The position numbers were made by a program, and so were the translations under genes. Below are positions 5,003-25,836 of a DNA stretch of 40,552 nt, piece by piece. Source of the DNA: a virus; the IMG/VR virus record IMGVR_UViG_3300005832_000025, positions 1 through 40,552 of that record. One strand, 5' to 3'. The notes beneath the pieces are model-generated. The model ran no database searches and had not been told where the DNA came from. It was given only the letters and a program-made list of their open reading frames with translations. Numbering within the stretch: position 1 is the stretch's first letter; each line of letters opens with the position of its first letter.

Positions 5003-7102
5003 ATGGCGTTGCAAGAAGTTGGCGTAGAAGCAATCGTAAAAGGACTGGCAGCCTTTCAGGGGGACATGAAGAAGATGAACTCCTCGCTGCAAGGTTTGCG
5101 CGGGGAGGGTACGCTTTTGCAACGCGCCTTCGGCTCGATCACGGAGGGGATCGTCAACTTTGGGGCCAGTCTTGTGCGGGTGGCAGAGGTTGCACTGGGA
5201 GTATTATTGCGGGATGCAATAAGGGCGGCAATAGATTTTGTGCGCGAATTGATAACAGCAACGATAGATGCTGGGAATGAATTTCAGGTGTTGGAAATAA
5301 GACTGGAAAGATTGAATTTCAACACATTGATTGAGTCTGGAACAGATTACAACCAGGCCGCCAGTGAAGCCGTGAAGTTGACCAAGGAACAATTGAAATG
5401 GCTACAACTGCTGGCAGCACAATCGCCTTACGATGCTACCGACGTAGCAAATGTGTTCACGCTTGCACGCTCGTATGGCTTTGCTGGAGAGCAAGCGCAA
5501 GGGATGACTCAGGATATCTTAGACTTTGCAGCCGGGATGGGTTTGGGCAGCCAGGAAATTCAACGTATTATTGTAAACTTTGGGCAAATGGTTCAGCAGG
5601 GGAAAGTGACACAGCGAGAAATGAATGACCTGGCACGAGGTTCATTTGTGCCGGTGAACGATGTATTGAAGATCATGCAGAAAAGAACTGGCCTGGCTGG
5701 GAAAGAATTCGATGCTTTCAGGAATAGCGGGGAAGGCGTGACTATGTTCATGAGCGCCTTTTCTGAATTGGTAGAGAAACGCTTTGCGGGGGGTGCTGAA
5801 CAAATGTCCAATACTTTCAAGGCGGCTACCGATAATGTGATGGACTTGGTAAAAGGTATTTTTGGTTTGAATACCGTGCGGCCAATTTTAGATAGTTTAG
5901 GAAAACGGGCGGCTGCATTTGCCAATGCTTTTACAGATGACCCGCAGCGCTGGGATAGATTGGTGGCGGCGGCCAGCAGACTGGGCACTGCGTTGACATC
6001 TGTACTCACTAGCCTATTCGACCTGATGCCTTCGACAGAAGGATTGGCGGATTCAGTTATCCAGGTAGTGGAACGCGCAGCGGCATGGGTGGAAGATAAC
6101 CGCGAGAACATCATTGGGTTTTTCGTTGACATTGCCGACACAATCCGCAATGAGATCGTGCCATGGATACGGGACCAACTTATTCCGGCAATCGGCCAGA
6201 TGTTTGCATGGATCAACGACAACAAGGATTTATTCTTACAAGTATTTCTCACGTTGGGAGAGGTGATTCGAGATGTAGTGGTGCCAGCGTTAGTGGAAGA
6301 GGTTATTCCGGCCTTGCAGAATTTGCTGACCTGGATCACAGAGAACAAAGAAACCGTGAAAATATGGATTGACTTTTTGATCAAGGCTTTCCTGGCATGG
6401 CAGGTAATTTCTACAGTATTGAACGTAGTTATCGGAATCATTCTAAGTGTGATTGGATTTGTTCTCGGACTGGTTGCAACAATCAGTGGCTTGATCAGTA
6501 TTATTAGTTTCTTGGGAAGCGGTTTTTTGACCTTGATCACAGTGGTTGGAGCAGTGATTGGAATTTTTACGGCGTTCAAGATGCAGCTTGAAATTGTGAA
6601 AACTGTAGTAGGAGGAGTGACAACTTACATTGAGCAACGTTTTGGAATTACCAAAGATGCAATTGTCAATAACTTACGCTGGGCATGGGAAATAGCAAAG
6701 AATTTAGATTGGGGAGGGTTAGGTCGTGCAATTGTTTCTGGAATTGCAAACGGCATTGTAACAATGGTCGGATATTTAGCGCGTGTGGCAGCGAATGCAG
6801 CTATGAGTGCTTACAATGCGGCCCGTTCCGCACTTGGAATCCAATCCCCCTCCAAGCTATTTATGGATATTGGCGCCGAGACAATGCAGGGGATGGCGCT
6901 GGGTATCCAGAAGAGCGCGGGGCTGGCGGCACTGACGATGCAGGGGGCGATGGCGAGGGTTTCGAGCGCGGCGGTGCCGAGCGTGACGAACTCGACGGTG
7001 TATAACAGCACGGCGAACTATAACCTGACAGTGAACTCGGGTGCGCCGACTGAGCCAATCTTGCAGGATTTCAATATGATGAGCTCGCTGGCGGGAGTGT
7101 AA
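5003..7102 (+). CDS. Tape measure protein
   Basis: 699 residues. It sets tail length and fills the tail tube until DNA ejection. The protein is largely helical. There is a phage tape-measure core near residues 120-260 (QSPYDATDVANVFTLARSYGF, NDLARGSFVPVNDVL), repeated amphipathic stretches (WIRDQLIPAIGQMFAWINDN), and strongly hydrophobic segments near residues 460-530 expected to contact the membrane. A length of 699 aa suggests a short tail, of the order of 100 nm. ATG 5003 follows the upstream stop with no gap. Confidence 0.85.
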   Translation: MALQEVGVEAIVKGLAAFQGDMKKMNSSLQGLRGEGTLLQRAFGSITEGIVNFGASLVRVAEVALGVLLRDAIRAAIDFVRELITATIDAGNEFQVLEIRLERLNFNTLIESGTDYNQAASEAVKLTKEQLKWLQLLAAQSPYDATDVANVFTLARSYGFAGEQAQGMTQDILDFAAGMGLGSQEIQRIIVNFGQMVQQGKVTQREMNDLARGSFVPVNDVLKIMQKRTGLAGKEFDAFRNSGEGVTMFMSAFSELVEKRFAGGAEQMSNTFKAATDNVMDLVKGIFGLNTVRPILDSLGKRAAAFANAFTDDPQRWDRLVAAASRLGTALTSVLTSLFDLMPSTEGLADSVIQVVERAAAWVEDNRENIIGFFVDIADTIRNEIVPWIRDQLIPAIGQMFAWINDNKDLFLQVFLTLGEVIRDVVVPALVEEVIPALQNLLTWITENKETVKIWIDFLIKAFLAWQVISTVLNVVIGIILSVIGFVLGLVATISGLISIISFLGSGFLTLITVVGAVIGIFTAFKMQLEIVKTVVGGVTTYIEQRFGITKDAIVNNLRWAWEIAKNLDWGGLGRAIVSGIANGIVTMVGYLARVAANAAMSAYNAARSALGIQSPSKLFMDIGAETMQGMALGIQKSAGLAALTMQGAMARVSSAAVPSVTNSTVYNSTANYNLTVNSGAPTEPILQDFNMMSSLAGV

Positions 7103-9566: not shown

Positions 9567-10850
9567 ATGCCTTCCTCATACGAATTCTGGTTGCTGGATG
9601 ACTCAGGGCGGCGGATGCTCCTATTGACCAACATGGCATTCTTCAGTTATTCGAGAGCGGTGCGGGGATATGGAACGCTGCTGGTGGGACTACCCTACCA
9701 AGATTATGTAGAGAAGGTATTCCCGATCTTCCAACCGGACTGGCGTGTGGATGTGTGGCGCTCACCAGATACGGGCTACCCCCTGCGAAGAGAAGGAACT
9801 TACCTGTTGCGGATGCCGAAAATCTATACGAGAACGACAGACAATATGCAGATGATTTCGTTTTATGGACGCGACCTGAAGGACTTGCTGAGGCGCAGAT
9901 ACATCATCCAGCCAGCGGGATATTCCCAGACCTATAAAACAGATTACATCGACGACATGATGAAGGAGATCGTGCGGGAGCAGATGCTGTATAACGAAGC
10001 TCTGGATGCGGACGCGGTACAGGATAACAGCAGGGCATGGCCAGAGGGAGAGTTTATTGTGCAGGGAAATGTTTCACTGGGACCGCTAAAGACTTTCACC
10101 TTCCCGGACAGGAACGTGTTGGATACGCTGAAAGAATTGCAGGATGCTTCTTTTCAATTACATGAGGAAGCTCCGTTATTAAACAACAGGATATTTTTCG
10201 ATGTGATTGCACAGGATCTCGATGGTTTCTCATTGTATATTCTTGACCTAGATGGAGATCCGATTTTAGATGAGGGGGGAGAGTTTGTTTTAGAAGAACG
10301 TTCTAGCGAGGGTACTTTCACACAGGGTTTCAAGTTCGTAACCTTTGCCGACCTACGCGGACAAGACAGGACAGCCAGCGCGTTGATCTTCAGTATAAAG
10401 AACAATAACCTGGAAGGGCCATACTATACACGCGATCACATGAGCGAGGTGAATTCTGTGGTGGTGAAAGGCTTTGGGCGCGGAGACAGCCGACCGAGCG
10501 CCAGGGTGACGGACACGCAGCGCGCAGGAGCCAGCCGCTGGAACCTATGCGAGGGACTGGAAGATGCCAGCACGGAACCTGACCAGGCCAGCCTGGAAGA
10601 TTATGCCTATCCCCCACTTTACGAGGGAGCACCCAAGGAAGAGATAAGCGCGGTGTTCCTGAACGTGCCAGGGAGCGAGGATACGCCGAGGAGCCTGTAT
10701 GGAGTGGACTGGGACCTGGGAGACCTGCTGCCGGTGGAATATGCCGGGAAGCAATGGAATGTGGAGGTAGATATTGTGTATGTGGCAGTAGATGAGAACG
10801 GGGCCGAGACTATTACCGGAAGGAATAAGGTAGATGCCAGTTATCAGTAA
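9567..10850 (+). CDS. Tail-tip protein, Gp37-like siphovirus family
   Basis: 427 residues. The N-terminus (EFWLLDDSGRRMLLL ... FSYSRAVRGYGTLLVGLP) and the later VDVWRSPDTGYPLRREGTYLLR match the pattern of the Gp37-like (ReqiPepy6-type) tail proteins that follow the distal tail protein and build the tail tip. ATG 9567 has GGAG nine bases upstream and starts right after the previous gene. It ends in a small overlap with an extended upstream frame of the next gene. A family call by pattern and position. Confidence 0.6.
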   Translation: MPSSYEFWLLDDSGRRMLLLTNMAFFSYSRAVRGYGTLLVGLPYQDYVEKVFPIFQPDWRVDVWRSPDTGYPLRREGTYLLRMPKIYTRTTDNMQMISFYGRDLKDLLRRRYIIQPAGYSQTYKTDYIDDMMKEIVREQMLYNEALDADAVQDNSRAWPEGEFIVQGNVSLGPLKTFTFPDRNVLDTLKELQDASFQLHEEAPLLNNRIFFDVIAQDLDGFSLYILDLDGDPILDEGGEFVLEERSSEGTFTQGFKFVTFADLRGQDRTASALIFSIKNNNLEGPYYTRDHMSEVNSVVVKGFGRGDSRPSARVTDTQRAGASRWNLCEGLEDASTEPDQASLEDYAYPPLYEGAPKEEISAVFLNVPGSEDTPRSLYGVDWDLGDLLPVEYAGKQWNVEVDIVYVAVDENGAETITGRNKVDASYQ

Positions 10851-12267: not shown

Positions 12268-12963
12268 ATGCCCGCTCTCGATGCTAATGTTAGTGCAATG
12301 TTGCACATGGATGGGGCGGATGCCTCGACTACGTTTACGGATGAAACAGGTAAAACCTGGACTGCGAATGGGAATGCCCAGATAGATACGGCGCAACAGA
12401 AATTTGGTACTGCATCCGGTCTTTTCGATGGTACTGGAGATTATATCGATACTCCTGACCATGCCGATTTCGATATAGGATCTGGCGACTTTACAATTGA
12501 TTTTTGGGTGCGCAGAAATGCTGTAGGCTTGCATCGTATTTGTGGACAAGGCGACAACTTAGCTACTGCGACTACAATCTCATGGGCTATGTACTTCAAT
12601 GCAGGAACCAACACGCTAACCGGCGGCTTCAATGTCGTAGCAGTTACTAAAGCGGCAACATCTACTGGAACGGTAACGGCTGATGGAATCTGGCATCATA
12701 TTGCAATGGTGCGTTATGGCAATACAATGACCCTTTATATCGATGGAACAGCCGACGGGACAGTAGATGTAACTGGAGCAACAGCTAACAATTCGGCTTA
12801 TAAGCCCACTATAGGCAGGCTTGGAGAATTGGCTGGACAAAATTATAATGGCTGGATCGATGAATTCAGATTCAGCAAAGGGATTGCCAGGTGGACAGCC
12901 AATTTCACACCCCCCACAAAAGCATACTATAGTTTCCTGCCGCACGTTTCAGGAATTATTTAG
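12268..12963 (+). CDS. LamG / concanavalin A-like lectin domain protein
   Basis: 231 residues made mostly of one LamG-like jelly roll: LHMDGADASTTFTDETGKTW, FGTASGLFDGTGDYIDTPD, DFTIDFWVRRN, WHHIAMVRYGNTMTLYIDG and GWIDEFRFSKGIARW are the characteristic blocks. It has no signal peptide. As the last rightward gene of the tail module it is probably a sugar-binding tail-tip or fibre protein. ATG 12268 lies one base after the previous stop. A hairpin at 12970-12996 ends the operon. Confidence 0.75.
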   Translation: MPALDANVSAMLHMDGADASTTFTDETGKTWTANGNAQIDTAQQKFGTASGLFDGTGDYIDTPDHADFDIGSGDFTIDFWVRRNAVGLHRICGQGDNLATATTISWAMYFNAGTNTLTGGFNVVAVTKAATSTGTVTADGIWHHIAMVRYGNTMTLYIDGTADGTVDVTGATANNSAYKPTIGRLGELAGQNYNGWIDEFRFSKGIARWTANFTPPTKAYYSFLPHVSGII

Positions 12964-12969
12964 ACATAG

Positions 12970-12996
12970 AAATACCCCACGGAACATGGGGTATTT
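12970..12996. terminator. Hairpin between convergent operons
   Basis: Arms AAATACCCC (12970-12978) and GGGGTATTT (12988-12996), loop of 9 nt, between the end of the rightward tail operon and the end of the leftward RecU gene. Short A/T ends on both sides suit a bidirectional terminator, though neither side has a long T-run. Confidence 0.6.
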
Positions 12997-13037
12997 CAGG
13001 GGGAAGGAGTCTGTCCATGTCTAAGCGGACAATTCTA

Positions 13038-13472
13038 TTATACATGGATATTCAGTTTTTGTGCAATAGCTGGTGTAATGGATTTGCCGTGATAAAAGTC
13101 ACTAATTGGCCATTCAAGAATATAGATACCAGTGGAGTGAACCCAGACTAATAGACTCCACCCCCCTAGTTCGGCATGTTGGGAGAGTCGCCCTGGCTGA
13201 TGCGGACGGAGATCGGACCAGCGCAGATTGCGATCGAGGATAGTTTTAGTTTCAATCAAGACAGCGCGGCCACCTGGCAGAATACCTCGTGTATCGCCGC
13301 TAACTTTTTCTCCCCAGACGATCTGATACCAGGTAGAATTATATATAATTTTAGTCTTGATGATTTTGAAAGGTGTACCAATGCGCTCGACCATCTCGAC
13401 GCCTAGTGCTTCGACAGCGCGCATAGCGTGTTCCTCGCCAGCCTTACCGAGCTTGGCTTGTGCTCTAGCCAT
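13038..13472 (-). CDS. RecU-like Holliday-junction resolvase
   Basis: 144 residues. It would cut four-way junctions during phage recombination or replication. The nuclease core is visible: GEEHAMRAVEALG near residue 12, GRAVLIETKT at 69-77 with the E-x-K pair (E74, K76), and HQ at 91-92 followed by GGWSLLVWV, the RecU/PD-(D/E)xK order (acidic residue, ExK, then HQ helix). RecU proteins are usually about 170-200 aa, so this one is short. It is the last gene of the leftward replication cluster and overlaps its upstream neighbour by 8 nt. Confidence 0.65.
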   Translation of the reverse strand: MARAQAKLGKAGEEHAMRAVEALGVEMVERIGTPFKIIKTKIIYNSTWYQIVWGEKVSGDTRGILPGGRAVLIETKTILDRNLRWSDLRPHQPGRLSQHAELGGWSLLVWVHSTGIYILEWPISDFYHGKSITPAIAQKLNIHV

Positions 13473-13623
13473 CCACTTTTCTCCAGCCGTGCATAAAGAG
13501 TCGTGAGAAACCTTGCAGGATGATCAGGCGATAGCCACAATATTTGCAGACTGGCTCGAGTTTGGCGCTGAACTCGTCGTAGATATATCTAACGTCTTTT
13601 GAGCTTAGATTGCGATTGCACAT
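13465..13623 (-). CDS. Small protein with a CxxC pair
   Basis: 52 residues from ATG 13623, chosen because GGAGG lies six bases upstream; a longer open frame to 13653 has no such site. The sequence (MCNRNLSSKDVRYIYDEF ... CKYCGYRL) has one CxxC motif, perhaps half of a zinc site. It overlaps the SH3 gene upstream and the RecU gene downstream. No family is recognised. Confidence 0.55.
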   Translation of the reverse strand: MCNRNLSSKDVRYIYDEFSAKLEPVCKYCGYRLIILQGFSRLFMHGWRKVDG

Positions 13624-13969
13624 TGCAGGCCTCCACATAATGAGAATGGACATAGCCGGTTTGTTTGCCAGTGTCTACGAGGTACCAATCAGCCTTCATG
13701 ATAATTCCCCTGACTTCCTGGCCAGTGTCGAGCCAGGCAGACACTGGCCAGGAAGTGGACGGTCCGCTGCGCAGGTTGAGGGATTTGGATGCGGTGACAA
13801 CCAGGCAAGCGGGCGCCTGTGTCGGGGTCGACACAGGCAAAACGACTTTTACTGATGTGAGTGTTGGCAAAACTGTGGCGGTTGCCAACGGTACCTGGGA
13901 GATGGCAGGCATGGACATGCAGGATAATATTACAAAGATTGCCAGTGTCGGGATAAGCAAACGCTTCAT
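13589..13969 (-). CDS. Secreted bacterial SH3-domain protein
   Basis: 126 residues. It has an N-terminal hydrophobic signal (LLIPTLAIFVILSC, possibly a lipoprotein cysteine), a Thr/Pro-rich linker, then an SH3_3-type domain (LNLRSGPSTSWPV ... GYVHSHYVEAC). Such domains bind peptidoglycan or peptides. The SH3 region contains DNA copies of the GCCAGTGTC repeat encoding LVDTGK, WLDTGQ and WPVS, one 17-bp perfect palindrome, and a covarying repeat pair in the linker. The start overlaps the HTH gene stop. A superinfection or cell-wall role is possible but not shown. Confidence 0.65.
   Translation of the reverse strand: MKRLLIPTLAIFVILSCMSMPAISQVPLATATVLPTLTSVKVVLPVSTPTQAPACLVVTASKSLNLRSGPSTSWPVSAWLDTGQEVRGIIMKADWYLVDTGKQTGYVHSHYVEACNVQSQSKLKRR
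13713..13756. repeat. 17-bp perfect inverted repeat built on two 9-mer copies
   Basis: Arms ACTTCCTGGCCAGTGTC (13713-13729) and GACACTGGCCAGGAAGT (13740-13756) with a 10-nt loop, inside the SH3 coding region. Nearby GCCTGTGTC (13815-13823) and GACACAGGC (13830-13838) form another perfect pair in which the fourth base has changed on both arms. GTTGGCAA/TTGCCAAC pairs at 13863-13889. Confidence 0.8.
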
Positions 13970-14274
13970 CGGACGCGCTTCCCGTCTCGACTATAGATGC
14001 GTTTCTGTATTGGGGGTGCTTTCGCTTCCAGTGCTGCCAGTGTCTGGGTGGCCTGGATAACCCAAGGGGCAATCTCTTCGCGGACTTTGGCGGGCAAATA
14101 CAATTTGGCGCGCAGGGTTTTATTGCGGGGTTCTTTGCCCTTCACGAGCAAGTTATGGATATGAGCCTTGTTGATCTCCAGGCGCCTGGCAAGCTCGCTC
14201 ATATTGCATTTTGCGGCTTCAAAATCCGCAATCAATTTTTCGGGTACATTGGGAGGAAATTGATTATGGGGCAT
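13966..14274 (-). CDS. Helix-turn-helix DNA-binding protein
   Basis: 102 residues. Residues about 10-45 (KLIADFEAAKCNMSELARRLEINKAHIHNLLVKG) form a clear helix-turn-helix, with a charged C-terminal half. It overlaps the SH3 gene start (ATGA). It carries one 9-mer copy (reading TLA). It lies in the middle of the repeat field and is therefore a candidate for the protein that binds the repeats, by proximity only. The ribosome binding site is weak. Confidence 0.65.
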   Translation of the reverse strand: MPHNQFPPNVPEKLIADFEAAKCNMSELARRLEINKAHIHNLLVKGKEPRNKTLRAKLYLPAKVREEIAPWVIQATQTLAALEAKAPPIQKRIYSRDGKRVR

Positions 14275-14311
14275 AAATGTATCACTTCTTGTTTTTCGTA
14301 GCTCTAAGCAG

Positions 14312-14330
14312 CCGTTATTTTTGATAACGG
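14312..14330 (-). terminator. Short hairpin after a stop codon
   Basis: Arms CCGTTAT (14312-14318) and ATAACGG (14324-14330), loop 5 nt, just downstream of the stop of the leftward gene 14332-14691. There is no T-run; it may be a weak terminator or an mRNA-stabilising hairpin. Confidence 0.45.
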
Positions 14331-14331
14331 G

Positions 14332-14691
14332 CTATGCTGGCTTCCATCCGGTAACTGGCTTGTCATCCAATAGAATATGGCCTTTGCCAGTGTCCAACCT
14401 GTGACCGGGAGGATTGGCTATAAAAATGATGCCGTCATTGTTGAAGTGCATCACGATTGCCTGTTGGGACACTGGCAAGAACGGTGCCAGTGTCTCCTGA
14501 TATCTTCTGCAATCTTCCTGTATGAGGCTCAATAACTCTGCCAGTGTCTCTAAGGAATTGTTGTCTACGGGCTTCATCGGGGCAGGAGTGGAAGGATTTG
14601 CCACCGACTCTTTTACGCTTGCCAGTGTCTGGATCTCGGTAGACTCGTTGCCAGTAGAAATATCCGTTGCCGTGCCAGTGTCCATGTTCAT
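14332..14691 (-). CDS. Unknown protein with 9-mer-encoded peptides, overlaps next entry
   Basis: 119 residues from ATG 14691, with AGGA six bases upstream; the frame is open to a TTG at 14709. The middle is amphipathic helix (SLETLAELLSLIQEDCRRYQETLAPFLP) and the end is IVMHFNNDGIIFIANPPGHR. Six 9-mer copies lie inside it, reading as DTG, TLA or PVS. It overlaps the 14435-14845 frame by 257 nt in another phase. Both frames look protein-like. No family is recognised. Confidence 0.5.
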   Translation of the reverse strand: MNMDTGTATDISTGNESTEIQTLASVKESVANPSTPAPMKPVDNNSLETLAELLSLIQEDCRRYQETLAPFLPVSQQAIVMHFNNDGIIFIANPPGHRLDTGKGHILLDDKPVTGWKPA

Positions 14692-14845
14692 CTTGTTTCC
14701 TGCCTTCAAAAAAGTGGTAGGTGGTGCCTTCGGCTATCGTGCCAGTGTCTGTTTGTTCGACACTGGCAGCCTGGCGCATCTGTGCCAGGATTTCGTCAAA
14801 GTCAAGGTTGCCAGTGTCAACCGTGCCAGTGTCTGACACTGGCAC
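14435..14845 (-). CDS. Unknown protein with aromatic/basic core, repeat-rich
   Basis: 136 residues, GTG start at 14845 with a purine-rich stretch about 12 bases upstream. The core YFYWQRVYRDPDTGKRKRVGGKS resembles small aromatic/basic domains (Y-x-W-R ... GGK) found in phage and cyanobacterial proteins, but I cannot name it. Nine 9-mer copies are read as DTG, HW or ASV. It begins inside the 33-nt palindrome at 14818-14850. It overlaps 14332-14691; the two may be separate genes or parts of one gene joined by a frameshift. Confidence 0.5.
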   Translation of the reverse strand: MPVSDTGTVDTGNLDFDEILAQMRQAASVEQTDTGTIAEGTTYHFFEGRKQDEHGHWHGNGYFYWQRVYRDPDTGKRKRVGGKSFHSCPDEARRQQFLRDTGRVIEPHTGRLQKISGDTGTVLASVPTGNRDALQQ

Positions 14846-14892: not shown

Positions 14893-15837
14893 CTAAGGGT
14901 CCAGGTCAACGTCATCGGGGGGGAGCGGGGTGCGAACGGTCTGAGCCATGGCAGCCGCGCGCATGCGCCCGTTGCTACGCTGCCTTGGGGCACCTATATG
15001 ACCATCGCCGTCAATATCACGTCCTAATTGACCCTCTAGCTGGCTGAGAGTTTTGCCAGCACGGATAGCTGCCTGGGCCGTAGCCGCTGAAACGCGGCCT
15101 TCTTCGACCATCTGCTTGTAGAGTTTCAATTCAGCGGCTTGTAACTGTTCTTGCGCAATCTGTTCGACAGCACGCTGACGGGTACGGTGATCCAATTCGA
15201 GTTCGCGCATTTGTTCGCGGGTGATACGCTCAGAGGCGGCGGCATCGGATGACAGGTGGTAGGCTGTGACTAAGAAGGTGTAGGCAGCAAGCAGAACGGG
15301 GATGACAATCACCACCCAGCGCTGGGCAGCTTCTGGAATGTGGACAAAGGCAGTCATAAAGCTGATATTCGAGGCGATAACCATACCACCGGCAATGCCT
15401 GTGAAAACGATTGAGAGTCCAGCAATGCCCATCATGAAAAGCATTGTCCACTGCTGCGTGGAGTTTTTCTCTTCGCGAGTGAAGAAGCGTCGCTTAGCAA
15501 GCGCAAAAGCACCCTCGGTGACTGTGACAAAAGCAGTAAGATATGCAAAGGCCAGGAACAAGTGCATGGGATCGGTCTGGAAATATAGGCCGCTCTCAGT
15601 AGGATAGGGAGCCAATCCCATGTAAAAGCCCAGCGTGCCTGTGAATAGCGCAGAGACAGCCAAAAACAAGTACACATACCAGTATTCTTGCAACTCGGCT
15701 TCCCAGGACATTTCGGTGGCTTTCTTACGCTTGTTTTGCCCCTTCAGTTTCTTGACAAGCGTAGGGCGAGCCATGTGGTCCTGAATTTCACGATCGAGTT
15801 CATCCAGGTCGGTGGTGTCAAATTTACTATTGTTCAC
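14893..15837 (-). CDS. Four-helix membrane protein with coiled-coil tail
   Basis: 314 residues from GTG 15837, with GGAG six bases upstream and a GTGA overlap with the WYL gene stop. There is a charged cytoplasmic N-terminus, then four hydrophobic segments (LFLAVSALFTGTLGFYMGL; LFLAFAYLTAFVTVTEGAF; LFMMGIAGLSIVFTGIAGG; VVIVIPVLLAAYTFLVTAY), then a long charged coiled coil with RQRAVEQIAQEQLQAAELK. DIDGDGHIG near the end is a calcium-loop-like motif. The function is unknown. Translational coupling to the WYL protein suggests a shared pathway. Confidence 0.6.
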   Translation of the reverse strand: MNNSKFDTTDLDELDREIQDHMARPTLVKKLKGQNKRKKATEMSWEAELQEYWYVYLFLAVSALFTGTLGFYMGLAPYPTESGLYFQTDPMHLFLAFAYLTAFVTVTEGAFALAKRRFFTREEKNSTQQWTMLFMMGIAGLSIVFTGIAGGMVIASNISFMTAFVHIPEAAQRWVVIVIPVLLAAYTFLVTAYHLSSDAAASERITREQMRELELDHRTRQRAVEQIAQEQLQAAELKLYKQMVEEGRVSAATAQAAIRAGKTLSQLEGQLGRDIDGDGHIGAPRQRSNGRMRAAAMAQTVRTPLPPDDVDLDP

Positions 15838-16163
15838 TTCTTTCTCCTTTTCTGGCCAGGATTTCGCCGGGGAGTAAGCCGGCAAATGATGGTTTTGATA
15901 GTTGTGTCATTAGGGTTGAAGCCCGGGCGGGCGTTCTTGAAACTGCGATTGGTGGCATCGATTGAGGTCATTTTTTCTACGTGGTAATCGCGCCAGCCTG
16001 AGCCGGTGGCGCCTGATAGTTGCCAGGCGCTGAGGGTGAGATCCCCGCTCTCGTCCCTGCCGAGAAGATGGGGCTCCACCACACGGAGAGAATCAGCATA
16101 CATGAACATGATGACTTCTTTGCGGCGGATATAGTTACACAGATTAGTTGTGGGGGTTGGCAT
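15834..16163 (-). CDS. Stand-alone WYL-domain protein
   Basis: 109 residues from ATG 16163; AAGGAGG lies 12 bases upstream, so the exact start is uncertain. The pattern RRKEVIMFMYADSLRVVEPHLLG, AWQLSGATGSGWRDYHVEKM and NARPGFNPNDTTIKTIICR matches WYL domains, which sense nucleic acids or nucleotide ligands in transcription factors and defence systems. There is no HTH, so it may bind a ligand alone or pair with another protein. It overlaps the gene on each side, suggesting co-translation with the membrane protein. Confidence 0.65.
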   Translation of the reverse strand: MPTPTTNLCNYIRRKEVIMFMYADSLRVVEPHLLGRDESGDLTLSAWQLSGATGSGWRDYHVEKMTSIDATNRSFKNARPGFNPNDTTIKTIICRLTPRRNPGQKRRKK

Positions 16164-16374
16164 CAGTATCAGAATCCTCCTTATCCTTTGGAAATGGTCT
16201 GTCTGGAAAAACCAGCTTCCAGACATCACGCAACATTTTCCGAAAGACTGCGACCTCGGTCGTAGCTGGAAATGGGTAATTGACTGCGATGAGCTCGGCG
16301 AGGGCTTGTTCCTCGCCAGAGGTCACTTCAAAGAGTTTGCCTTTTCTGGCTTTTCTGGCTTTTTTAGGGGGCAT
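16144..16374 (-). CDS. Small basic/acidic protein, possibly from a leaderless message
   Basis: 76 residues. It has a lysine-rich N-terminus (PPKKARKARKGK), a helical middle and an acidic tail. No family is recognised. A consensus promoter ends 6 nt before its ATG, so transcription would start at about the A of the ATG. It overlaps the WYL gene by 20 nt and heads the sub-operon with the WYL and membrane proteins. Confidence 0.6.
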   Translation of the reverse strand: MPPKKARKARKGKLFEVTSGEEQALAELIAVNYPFPATTEVAVFRKMLRDVWKLVFPDRPFPKDKEDSDTDANPHN

Positions 16375-16380
16375 ATTTTT

Positions 16381-16408
16381 ATTATATAGACTTTAGATAT
16401 TTTGTCAA
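16381..16408 (-). promoter_or_regulatory. Consensus sigma70 promoter, leaderless
   Basis: On the minus strand TTGACA (16403-16408) and TATAAT (16381-16386) are perfect consensus boxes with a 16-bp spacer. The expected start point is about 16374, the first base of the ATG of the 76-aa gene. Confidence 0.75.
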
Positions 16409-17006: not shown

Positions 17007-17744
17007 TTAGTGTTTCCAATCTGCTGGCATAAACTGACGCCCATCTGGACCATCCAAATGGACAATTGGCCCAAGGCGCTTATCGCGCAAGCGGCTTGTC
17101 AGGTATCCATCTAGCTCCCCATCGCCGCGATTGCTGGCGATTACGGTCAAAGCCTCTTGGCGGATAGCCCGCGAGTAGCGTTGATCAAGTAACTGAAATA
17201 GACGTTCGCGCGCCCAGGGGGTATCATTGCTTTTATCGAGCTCATCTATGAACAATACATCACGCTGAATCCAGTAGTCCATACGGCGCAGTAGTTCTGT
17301 GGTTTTGTGTTCCTGCTCATCGAAGGCTAAACGGATGTCGTCCAGGACAGATGATACATTGGCATAAGCAGCGTGTTTGCCATCACGCAGGGCAGTTGCC
17401 ACTAGAATCTTGCCGACCAGTGTTTTTGCCTGGCCATAACTACCCCACAAAAAGACCAAGCCCCAGCCATTTTGATAGGCTAGGCGTACAGCCTGGACTG
17501 CCTTATGACCATCGGAGAAATTGGGTTTTACGGCGCTCCATGCCAATTCCAATTCGTCTTCTCGGACGCCGATGCGTTGCAGATTTTCTATTCTGTTTTG
17601 CCGTGCTTGCTCTGCTTCTTTCTTTGCAATGGTCGCATAATTGCTAGCTACCCAGGCTTTATATTCTTCATCGGTTACTTTACTGGAGCCGGCTTTTCTC
17701 AGCTTTGCTTTTAGATTTTCAGATGCTTCTTCAAACGTTTGCAT
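17007..17744 (-). CDS. DnaC/IstB-like helicase loader ATPase
   Basis: 245 residues, AAA+ fold. Walker A is at 101-108 (GSYGQAKT) and Walker B at 163-171 (VLFIDELDK), followed by a sensor-1 VIASN and a C-terminal arginine-rich region (LTSRLRDKRLG). It would load the host or phage helicase at the origin next to the DnaD-like initiator just upstream, with which it overlaps by 14 nt. Odd point: the residue before the Walker A lysine is alanine, not glycine. Confidence 0.75.
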   Translation of the reverse strand: MQTFEEASENLKAKLRKAGSSKVTDEEYKAWVASNYATIAKKEAEQARQNRIENLQRIGVREDELELAWSAVKPNFSDGHKAVQAVRLAYQNGWGLVFLWGSYGQAKTLVGKILVATALRDGKHAAYANVSSVLDDIRLAFDEQEHKTTELLRRMDYWIQRDVLFIDELDKSNDTPWARERLFQLLDQRYSRAIRQEALTVIASNRGDGELDGYLTSRLRDKRLGPIVHLDGPDGRQFMPADWKH

Positions 17745-18507
17745 TGGGCACCATTTGCTCTTTTGCTAATTCACATAATCGATCAATTTCTTCAGTGGAT
17801 AATCTCTTTGGTTCTGGTTCCCTGCTTTTACCATTTTTGCGACCGTTCTTTCTCTCAGGTTTCCATCCGAAGCCGTTGCGTTTCCAGCTATCCAGAATTG
17901 CATCAACGTAATTCCAGGAGCGGGCGTTGTTTTTGACTGCGATGGCAAAGGCGGGTTGATACCAGGTTTCTATGGGGTAGTCGATGGTGGCGTTGCGAAG
18001 GATATCGGCCATGAGGGGGGTGATAGCTCCGATGTTTTCTTCATAAAGGGTGGCAAGAGTTTTCGTGCGGTGCGTGAGCCCCTCATCATCATCATCATTC
18101 TTAATTGGTTGATTCTTTAGTTCACCACATGAACACCCCTGTTCACCACATGAACACCCCTGTTCACCACATGAACACTTTGAATACATTTGAAAGTTCT
18201 CCTGCCATTTGTTTACTGGCGTAATATCTAAGGTGCCAAAATCGGTCTGTCCCTTTATAATTATCCAGCCCTTATCATTCAAGCCCTCGCGTGCTTTCAC
18301 AACCATGCCAATGCTCATATTGCAGGCTTTAGCTGTGCTCCTGACGCCTTCCCAGCAATTCCCTCGACGATAATAGTGGACTAATAAACGGAATTCAAAG
18401 GGAGTCAGATTGGAATCATCGAGCATATTTGGCAATTCTGTGCGCCATTTTCTGAGATCAGGCGTGGATCCTATTTTCTGTTGTTGATCAATGTCATGTG
18501 TTTTCAT
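17731..18507 (-). CDS. DnaD-like replication initiator with internal tandem repeats
   Basis: 258 residues. The N-terminal winged helix (TPFEFRLLVHYYRRGNCWEGVRSTAKACNMSIGMVVKAREGL) and C-terminal DnaD-type domain (LYEENIGAITPLMADILRNA ... WYQPAFAIAVKNNARSWNYVDAILDSW) flank a linker with CSCGEQG repeats (KCSCGEQGCSCGEQGCSCGE). The linker is encoded by the 21-nt DNA repeats at 18121-18178, which look like origin iterons. This is the order seen in phage initiators such as lambda O, where the origin lies inside the initiator gene. GAGG five bases before ATG 18507. A structured leader precedes it. Confidence 0.75.
   Translation of the reverse strand: MKTHDIDQQQKIGSTPDLRKWRTELPNMLDDSNLTPFEFRLLVHYYRRGNCWEGVRSTAKACNMSIGMVVKAREGLNDKGWIIIKGQTDFGTLDITPVNKWQENFQMYSKCSCGEQGCSCGEQGCSCGELKNQPIKNDDDDEGLTHRTKTLATLYEENIGAITPLMADILRNATIDYPIETWYQPAFAIAVKNNARSWNYVDAILDSWKRNGFGWKPERKNGRKNGKSREPEPKRLSTEEIDRLCELAKEQMVPNANV
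18121..18178. repeat. 21-nt iterons with internal dyads, candidate phage origin
   Basis: Unit TTCACCACATGAACACCCCTG: full copies at 18121-18141 and 18142-18162 and 16 nt of a third at 18163-18178. Copies 2 and 3 contain the dyad TGTTCA-CCACA-TGAACA. A CAT run (18083-18098) and an A/T-rich stretch near 18099-18120 lie alongside. Tandem dyads plus A/T-rich DNA in the initiator gene fit a replication origin. Confidence 0.55.
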
Positions 18508-24488: not shown

Positions 24489-24865
24489 CAGGCCTCCTTT
24501 GCTTTTCTAATTCTCTCGGTGATAAGGCGTTCTATCTCTGCTTTGCTCACCTGACGGCTGATTTCGTCTGTGAGTATGCAGTGGTAGATGGGACCATCTT
24601 CGGGCCAGAGTTCGAGCGCTCCGAGATGGGCGCAAAACCCTTCGGGGGCAATGCCTTCGGGGAGCGGCCAGCCATCTGGACGGATATCCACCAAGTCGTG
24701 ATAGTAATGGGGGAGTTTACCGAGGACGGTTGCCGTCAGCATGGGGTTCGCGTTGAGATGCACGACCAGGCCGCTGATCCCCAGCGAGGCGGCTTCGAAG
24801 CCATGCTCGCTGGGGTGGAAACAGACGCGGGTGCCGGGGGGGAAGTCGGAGCGGGATCTTGTCAT
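24488..24865 (-). CDS. Small protein after the integrase, unknown
   Basis: 125 residues from ATG 24865, GGAG five bases upstream, overlapping the integrase stop (ATGA). The N-terminus PPGTRVCFHPSEHGFEAASLGISGLVVHLNANP suggests a small SH3-like beta barrel, and the end is a charged helix. No family is recognised. Co-translation with the integrase and the GGDEF-like gene suggests one operon. Confidence 0.55.
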   Translation of the reverse strand: MTRSRSDFPPGTRVCFHPSEHGFEAASLGISGLVVHLNANPMLTATVLGKLPHYYHDLVDIRPDGWPLPEGIAPEGFCAHLGALELWPEDGPIYHCILTDEISRQVSKAEIERLITERIRKAKEA

Positions 24866-25836
24866 TTTATCTCCGGGATGTGCAACTTTCTGATGGCGGC
24901 TTTGCGGGTGCGCTCGGGGCGGCGGTCGTAGTTGGCGGTGGTAGTGGGCGAGGCGTGGCCCATGAGTTGCTGGACGGTGGCCAGGTCGTTTGTGTCGAGC
25001 AGTTGCCCGGCGAAGGTGCGCCGGAAGTCGTGCCAGGTCAGGTGCTTGAGAGTGGTCTGGGCCAGGCGCTTTTCGACGATTTTGCGCAGGGCTTCGCCCG
25101 TGATTCCATGGCCGGGGACGATGGTGCCATCTTTGCGGATGGGGCAAAAGATATTGCCGGGGGTATCGCCACGTACATCAAGCCAGGCGAGCAGTGCATC
25201 CAGGGCGCCGTTGAACATATAGGCAGTGCGGGACTTGCCGCCCTTGCCATGCACAACGAGGTCGGCTTCGGTTTCGCCGGTCGCTTCGGTGTTTTCGTAC
25301 AGTACAAGGTCTTCGAGGCGCAGGCGTGAGAGTTCGGCACGGCGCAGGCCGGTGGTCCAGGCGGTGGCGAAGAGGGCGGCATCACGGACTCCGGCGGGAG
25401 ACTTGTCTTCGAGGCAGGCGCGCAGGAGCTTGATGAGCTCGGATTGGCGCAGGTGCCGGCCAGCTTTGGGGCTATCGCCTTTGACATCTTCCACGGCGAT
25501 GACGCGGGCGGCCTGTTCGGAGACGCGGGCGGCCTGTTCGCTGGGCAGGAATTCGAAGGCATAGTCAACCATCTTGCGAGCCCACCAGCGGATACAGGCG
25601 AGCTTGTGATTGATGGTGCTGGGCGCTAACCCATCGCGCTGTAGTTTGGCGGCGTAGGCTTCGACCAACATCTTTGTGATGGGGGGCATGCCCTGATTGA
25701 GCCGCCAGGCTTCGAAGGCTTTCAGATTTGAGCGGTATTGGTTGCGGCTGTGATCGCTCGTAAAAGCCGGGTCGGTGTAGAGGGCTTTGTCGAGCACGTC
25801 GGGGAGGTTGGGGGTGGTGGCCAGGGTGGTGGTCAT
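24862..25836 (-). CDS. int: Tyrosine recombinase / phage integrase
   Basis: 324 residues. An N-terminal core-binding SAM-like domain (NQYRSNLKAFEAWRLNQG) is followed by the catalytic domain: R165 (TGLRRAEL), K near 198-201 (HGKGGKS), H269-R272 (WHDFRRTF), H294 (LMGHASPTTTANY) and Y303. All catalytic residues are visible. It would integrate the phage at a host site, or resolve genome dimers like XerC/D. No attP core was identified. A 21-nt tandem duplication (25501-25540) encodes SEQAARV twice. Confidence 0.85.
   Translation of the reverse strand: MTTTLATTPNLPDVLDKALYTDPAFTSDHSRNQYRSNLKAFEAWRLNQGMPPITKMLVEAYAAKLQRDGLAPSTINHKLACIRWWARKMVDYAFEFLPSEQAARVSEQAARVIAVEDVKGDSPKAGRHLRQSELIKLLRACLEDKSPAGVRDAALFATAWTTGLRRAELSRLRLEDLVLYENTEATGETEADLVVHGKGGKSRTAYMFNGALDALLAWLDVRGDTPGNIFCPIRKDGTIVPGHGITGEALRKIVEKRLAQTTLKHLTWHDFRRTFAGQLLDTNDLATVQQLMGHASPTTTANYDRRPERTRKAAIRKLHIPEIK

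Follow-up and report, generated by a model that had tools for sequence, protein, structure and literature searches.

In REP/RAYT systems, a gene is surrounded by a cluster of a short word that forms inverted pairs; the REPs lie outside genes, bear GTAG/CGTC tags, and are accompanied by a Y1 transposase. Some phage arrays are bound by proteins of the host, for example DnaA or IHF. In iteron origins, such as those of SaPI Rep, SCC Cch2, PLE RepA, and the satellite phage P4, an element-specific short sequence is repeated near the gene of its binder (PMC7581432, PMC7145576). The parS of pSM19035 is composed of 7-bp non-palindromic repeats in mixed orientation, which are recognized by the ribbon-helix-helix protein Omega (PMC9499535). 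Stoperators of the L5/Bxb1 type are asymmetric and lie mostly off promoters, and both their consensus and the repressor differ between related phages (PMC6550527).

A viral record of 40,552 bp (IMG/VR IMGVR_UViG_3300005832_000025), the whole of which was analyzed and is called the window here, contains 16 exact copies of the 9-mer GCCAGTGTC, all within 1.18 kb (positions 13667–14843). The positions and strands that an earlier sequence-only reading had assigned to them are all exact, and its estimate of about 0.3 chance copies agrees with dinucleotide shuffles, which average 0.34 copies and never exceed 3. That reading had considered that the 9-mer might be a general motif of the phage; there are zero copies in the rest of the window. 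In a de novo scan of all 9-mers, the window maximum is these 16 copies per 1.2 kb, versus two to three in sequences simulated with an order-3 Markov model. Twelve copies are on the plus strand and four on the minus strand. With a T directly before it in 14 cases out of 16, the actual word is TGCCAGTGTC. It is an asymmetric 9–10-mer and not a 16-bp palindrome of the parS kind. The copies are spaced irregularly, from 1 to about 340 bp apart, and do not form the contiguous repeats of a pSM19035-type centromere. The irregular spacing, the use of two strands, and the occupation of three codon phases also distinguish the array from tandem repeats and from the coding sequence of a repetitive protein.

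The array extends over four leftward open reading frames (ORFs). The first encodes a 126-residue protein with an N-terminal hydrophobic segment and a bacterial SH3 domain (13589–13969; PF08239, E=1.1e-10), and it contains plus-strand words at 13667–13675 and 13721–13729, which both encode DTG, a minus-strand word at 13740–13748 within WPVS, and a plus-strand word at 13941–13949 within PTLA. The words at 13721 and 13740 are located in the two arms of a perfect inverted repeat with 17-nt arms and a 10-nt gap (13713–13756). An inverted pair of one-base variants, GCCTGTGTC at 13815 and GACACAGGC at 13830 (13815–13838), carries the identical A-to-T change in each arm and may be a relic or an alternative site. 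The second ORF encodes a 102-residue helix-turn-helix (HTH)-like protein (13966–14274) with one plus-strand word at 14036–14044, within QTLA. The third and fourth ORFs, P0003 (14332–14691) and P0004 (14435–14845), overlap in different frames. The plus-strand words in this region are at 14386–14394 (DTG in P0003), 14486–14494, 14540–14548, 14621–14629, 14674–14682 (DTG in one frame and GHWH in the other), 14741–14749, 14810–14818, and 14825–14833, and those on the minus strand are at 14468–14476, 14759–14767, and 14835–14843. The last of these is positioned at the putative GTG start of P0004, the TG of the start codon being part of TGCCAGTGTC. The words at 14825 and 14835 belong to a second perfect inverted repeat, which has 16-nt arms and a 1-nt gap and covers the start of P0004 (14818–14850). 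The arms of both perfect inverted repeats are far longer than the word, which suggests local template switching.

The array genes are followed downstream by a gene for a RecU-like Holliday-junction resolvase (13038–13472, minus strand). Its assignment in the sequence-only reading is supported by a profile match (PHROG 843, E=2.4e-8), whereas the HTH assignment made alongside it is weak, with only sub-threshold profile matches. On the other side, the array is adjoined by a leftward gene for a 312-residue protein with hydrophobic, probably multi-transmembrane, segments and a charged C-terminal part (14893–15831). Further upstream are a leftward 76-residue ORF, which by eye resembles a ribbon-helix-helix protein (16144–16374), and, just upstream of it on the minus strand, a perfect sigma70 consensus, TTGACA-16-TATAAT (16381–16408), which is likely to be the promoter of the module. 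Genes for DnaC-like and DnaD-like proteins are located at 17007–18507, 2–4 kb from the array. An integrase gene at 24862–25836 indicates that the phage is probably temperate.

The words occupy all three codon phases and are translated as DTG, TLA, PVS, ASV, or GHWH, in agreement with the previous observation that they fall in several leftward genes and in more than one phase. Inside the array, the tripeptide DTG is encoded by GACACTGGC in 10 of 10 cases and TLA by ACACTGGCA in 5 of 5, whereas none of the three DTG and none of the seven TLA tripeptides in the remaining ORFs of the phage use these codons. Words are present in two overlapping frames in the window and between ORFs in a related phage, L009. 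The array is thus not explained by codon choice, and the distribution of the codons supports a constraint on the DNA rather than on the peptides. The proposal that selection acts on the nucleic acid is thereby upheld.

Two phages that share the module were identified in IMG/VR, a 58-kb contig found through the HTH protein (L009) and a 61-kb contig found through the membrane protein (L033). The window and L009 have essentially this module alone in common. By contrast, L009 and L033 are collinear sister phages with 69–86% DNA identity in aligned blocks. Neither relative contains a cluster of GCCAGTGTC. Instead, L009 has 15 copies of TGCCAACAG in 0.78 kb at the array gene slot (17 in the contig), and L033 has eight copies of GCCATTAGA in 0.56 kb at the same slot (10 in the contig). 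The strongest local 9-mer cluster of each genome is in this slot: 16 copies of GACACTGGC in the window, 15 of CTGTTGGCA in L009, and eight of GCCATTAGA in L033. The sequence-only reading had missed that other phages have an array in syntenic position, with a different word in each of them. The three words share the form (T/A)GCCA, followed by GTG, ACA, or TTA and then by TC, GA, or GA, respectively. In all three phages, one of the words extends over the putative start codon of the P0004-like gene (GTGCCAGTGTC, GTGCCAACAG, and ATGCCGTTAGA; ATGCCGTTAGA differs from the L033 word at one position). The alignment of L009 with L033 breaks over the array, including P0004, P0003, and the HTH gene (12283–13494 of the L009 contig). 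The two phages are mosaic, and there are further non-alignable stretches between them, so a swap is not unique to the array site; the break alone is not special, but the presence of the array within it is. The family of the 312-residue protein (14893–15831 in the window, L009:8179–9108, L033:9998–10924) has no significant match among known families, and its members adjoin the array in each of the three phages; the window protein is 50% identical to those of L009 and L033, which are 80% identical to each other. The 16th copy of the L009 word is located in an SH3-like gene, and it is probably coincidental because it is also found in L033 and encodes conserved residues. In the SH3-like gene of L033 (12553–12562), the L009 word GTGCCAACAG lies within a conserved C-(V/M)-P-T-D motif, either as a coincidence or as the relic of an older word.

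Like the iteron origins of SaPI Rep, SCC Cch2, PLE RepA, and P4, the three loci contain arrays of a short element-specific sequence, with 16, 15, and eight copies of the phage-specific words, and the nearby gene of a binder is here a candidate. Described iterons differ in being few and non-coding, whereas the 8–16 copies found here are mostly intragenic, irregular, on both strands, and without an AT-rich stretch. The likeness to the pSM19035 centromere is in the short non-palindromic repeats in mixed orientation; however, the pSM19035 repeats are contiguous, overlap promoters, and function with a ParA ATPase, whereas the words are 1–340 bp apart and intragenic, and no ParA was found in their module. 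As in the L5/Bxb1 stoperators, the sites are asymmetric, most are off promoters, and the word differs between related phages. Stoperators are, however, distributed genome-wide and oriented with transcription, whereas these sites are local and in both orientations: all 16 copies of the window are in 1.18 kb, 16 of 17 are clustered in L009, and 8 of 10 in L033, with strand ratios of 4:12, 9:7, and 4:4. The ratio of 12 copies to four, noted previously, is thus exact in the window but loses its value as a clue in the relatives. The mixed strand use argues for recognition of DNA over RNA and against stoperators. REP/RAYT elements are similar in their short word and inverted pairs, and differ from the array, which is intragenic, has no GTAG/CGTC tags, and has no identified Y1 transposase in its module.

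The copies appear to have arisen in more than one way. The alignment of the SH3 domain with the solved SH3 domain 2kq8 runs through three words without a gap, and that of the HTH protein with its homologue in L009, which lacks the word at 14036, is likewise gap-free at this site. Therefore, these copies were not inserted and are most likely the product of substitution in place. The comparison with homologues proposed in the sequence-only reading as a check for insertion thus shows replaced codons and no indel in the SH3 and HTH genes, which does not support the self-spreading element, as an insertion, that it had listed among its candidates. Moreover, the isolated words in these two genes have no common flanking sequence. 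Other parts of the arrays show duplication: a composite unit of 40 bp occurs three times in L009 (9223, 9569, and 9862).

Distances between words on the same strand cluster at multiples of approximately 10.5–11 bp (pooled P ~0.0005 with jitter that preserves the codon phase, in a test chosen post hoc, once the distances were known). This helical phasing is present in L009 and L033 and absent in the window. Phased, dense, and asymmetric sites suggest, by analogy, a cooperative assembly such as those at origins or centromeres. The GC content of the array is 0.42–0.58, and there is no AT-rich unwinding region within it; the AT-richest 60-mers (0.70–0.77) are located 0.3–2 kb from the array. The GC skew is nearly monotonic and provides no origin signal. 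No ParA, ParM, or TubZ motor was found among the module proteins or, for the rest of the window, among the PHROG matches listed. With no AT-rich element in the array and no motor found in the module, the anatomy of an origin is incomplete, as is that of a centromere, and the function of the array can only be inferred. Some proteins of the L009 contig (L030–L032) match PHROG families of ParB-like partition proteins.

Which protein reads the word can be narrowed down by comparing the cassettes. The HTH protein, which had been put forward as the binder, is a poor candidate: it is 59% identical to its L009 homologue (10001–10303), and the HTH region is nearly invariant in a phage that uses another word. 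The 76-residue protein is 43% identical to its counterparts in L033 and L009, and these are 94% identical to each other, which is too alike for proteins reading different words. A winged-HTH protein has the segment STSV(I/V)N in identical form in the window, L009, and L033. The conservation of these three proteins does not easily explain the switch of the word. By contrast, the P0004-like proteins diverge in every pair: the similarity of the 136-residue orphan P0004 to its L033 homologue is 29% over 104 residues (E=1e-9), that between L009 and L033 is undetectable, and no clear homologue of P0004 was found in L009. The overlapping P0003 has weak similarity to L033 (E=0.007). By elimination, P0004 is the leading candidate for the reader. 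The co-variation of P0004 with the word amounts to three points, one for each phage; for the L009 protein, homology to the other two is not demonstrable, and the reader may be encoded elsewhere in the phage genomes. Profile searches with P0004 gave no match to a known family. AlphaFold models of P0004 are poor (pLDDT 47–52); they suggest a core of three strands and a helix, which is unreliable, and a Foldseek search with the low-confidence model returned no match. P0004 resembles AP2-like arm-binding domains only by eye, and no such relationship is claimed.

The interpretation that accounts best for these observations, with a probability of roughly 0.5, is that the 16 words are an array of binding sites for a protein of their own cassette, with P0004 as the best candidate, which would form an iteron- or centromere-like complex for the start of replication or for maintenance. 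The words would be asymmetric sites of approximately 10 bp for a sequence-specific phage protein, and each phage would have a private word that changes together with the array-bearing cassette, inside which the reader is most likely encoded. Several copies of the reader could assemble along the array into a single large nucleoprotein complex of the kind known from iteron origins and plasmid centromeres, and this complex may serve the initiation of phage DNA replication or the maintenance of the DNA. A link to the membrane is possible through the neighboring membrane protein. The word over the putative start codon of P0004 would enable the reader to limit its own expression. Protein-binding sites, one of the explanations offered in the sequence-only reading, are the preferred class of explanation.

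The asymmetric sites within genes, the word over the putative P0004 start in three of three phages, and the putative strong promoter upstream of the module would also be expected of a regulatory operator array, in which a phage regulator represses the operon or blocks its transcription in the manner of stoperators, with the word and the regulator diverging between heteroimmune sister phages. The difference between the sister-phage words resembles that between heteroimmune stoperator consensus sequences (PMC6550527). However, stoperators are found throughout the genome in the direction of transcription (PMC6550527), whereas nearly all copies of the words are located within 0.6–1.2 kb, the orientation is mixed in the relatives, and there is no word at the module promoter (16381–16408), which makes an operator array rather unlikely. 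A mutation-driven or self-spreading repeat, whose copies multiply through duplication and local template switching and do not benefit the phage, has a still smaller chance of being correct. The perfect inverted repeats that continue beyond the words (17- and 16-nt arms), the identical substitution in both arms of the variant pair at 13815 and 13830, and the triplicated 40-bp unit of L009 all agree with it, but it does not account for the words that stand alone in the SH3 and HTH genes, without indels or common flanks, for related but different words in one slot of three phages, or for the helically phased spacing in L009 and L033, and none of the module genes was identified as a transposase.

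It is very improbable that the word acts in RNA, as hairpins or linear motifs of the operon mRNA that are bound by a phage protein or control translation. Inverted pairs can fold into strong hairpins, and in each of the three phages a word covers the putative start codon of P0004; however, sense and antisense copies are about equally frequent in the relatives (9:7 and 4:4), many copies are without a partner nearby, and there is no match to an Rfam family. Sites for a nucleoid or replication protein of the host, instead of a phage protein, would fit the GCCA that the words have in common, but the words of the sister phages differ and change with the phage cassette. A host switch could produce such a difference, yet this origin of the array is likewise highly unlikely. 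In sum, the 16 words are a real array of sites that is specific to the phage and constrained at the DNA level; it is a variant of the iteron, centromere, or operator kind and is most likely bound by a protein of its own cassette.

The location in coding genes and the rewriting between sister phages set this case apart. It is possible, although doubtful, that the arrays represent an undescribed private-address system, in which a small DNA-binding protein that belongs to no known family is paired with its own array of 9–10-bp addresses in neighboring reading frames. The addresses, composed of GCCA and variable bases, would be rewritten copy by copy when the specificity changes, which would bar sister phages from using the sites of one another. 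Sister phages with all copies of an array rewritten in the same slot would be a natural experiment in the joint change of specificity of a protein and its many dispersed sites, to which single steps do not readily lead. Such a case would further demonstrate that a large cis-acting array can be written into coding sequence. Since the words are known and the small proteins of each cassette number just three or four, the reader is readily testable.

Searches for further relatives covered several collections. Scans for inverted pairs in 2.9 million viral contigs found none of the three words as an array elsewhere, and other contigs contain just scattered copies. Searches of viral contigs with the module proteins and a degenerate scan for TGIAGGMVIA gave no relatives beyond L009 and L033, and scans of genome collections were empty. 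There was no match in tblastn searches of INPHARED phages with P0004, its L033 homologue, the L033 membrane protein, and TerL, in a tblastn search of PLSDB plasmids with the L033 homologue of P0004, or in a blastn search of phages with the module. No module protein matched a transposase above the threshold in profile searches, the Rfam and tRNA scans were empty, and the literature matches listed for the 9-mer are all unrelated to it.

Approximately 72 viral contigs in which the three words had matched by chance provided controls. The clusters in four of them (L029, L060, L070, and L072) are near-tandem repeats on the same strand, mostly 12–15 bp apart, and are not interspersed. By contrast, contig L055 contains an unrelated interspersed array of GGTAACCA, with 15 copies on both strands in 0.75 kb (5891–6636), mostly non-coding and directly after a gene for a P4-like primase/helicase. 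By analogy, it looks like a classical iteron origin. Interspersed arrays are therefore uncommon but not unique. Another short sequence, AAAGGAGTC, occurs eight times in the whole window and is possibly a favored ribosome-binding sequence.
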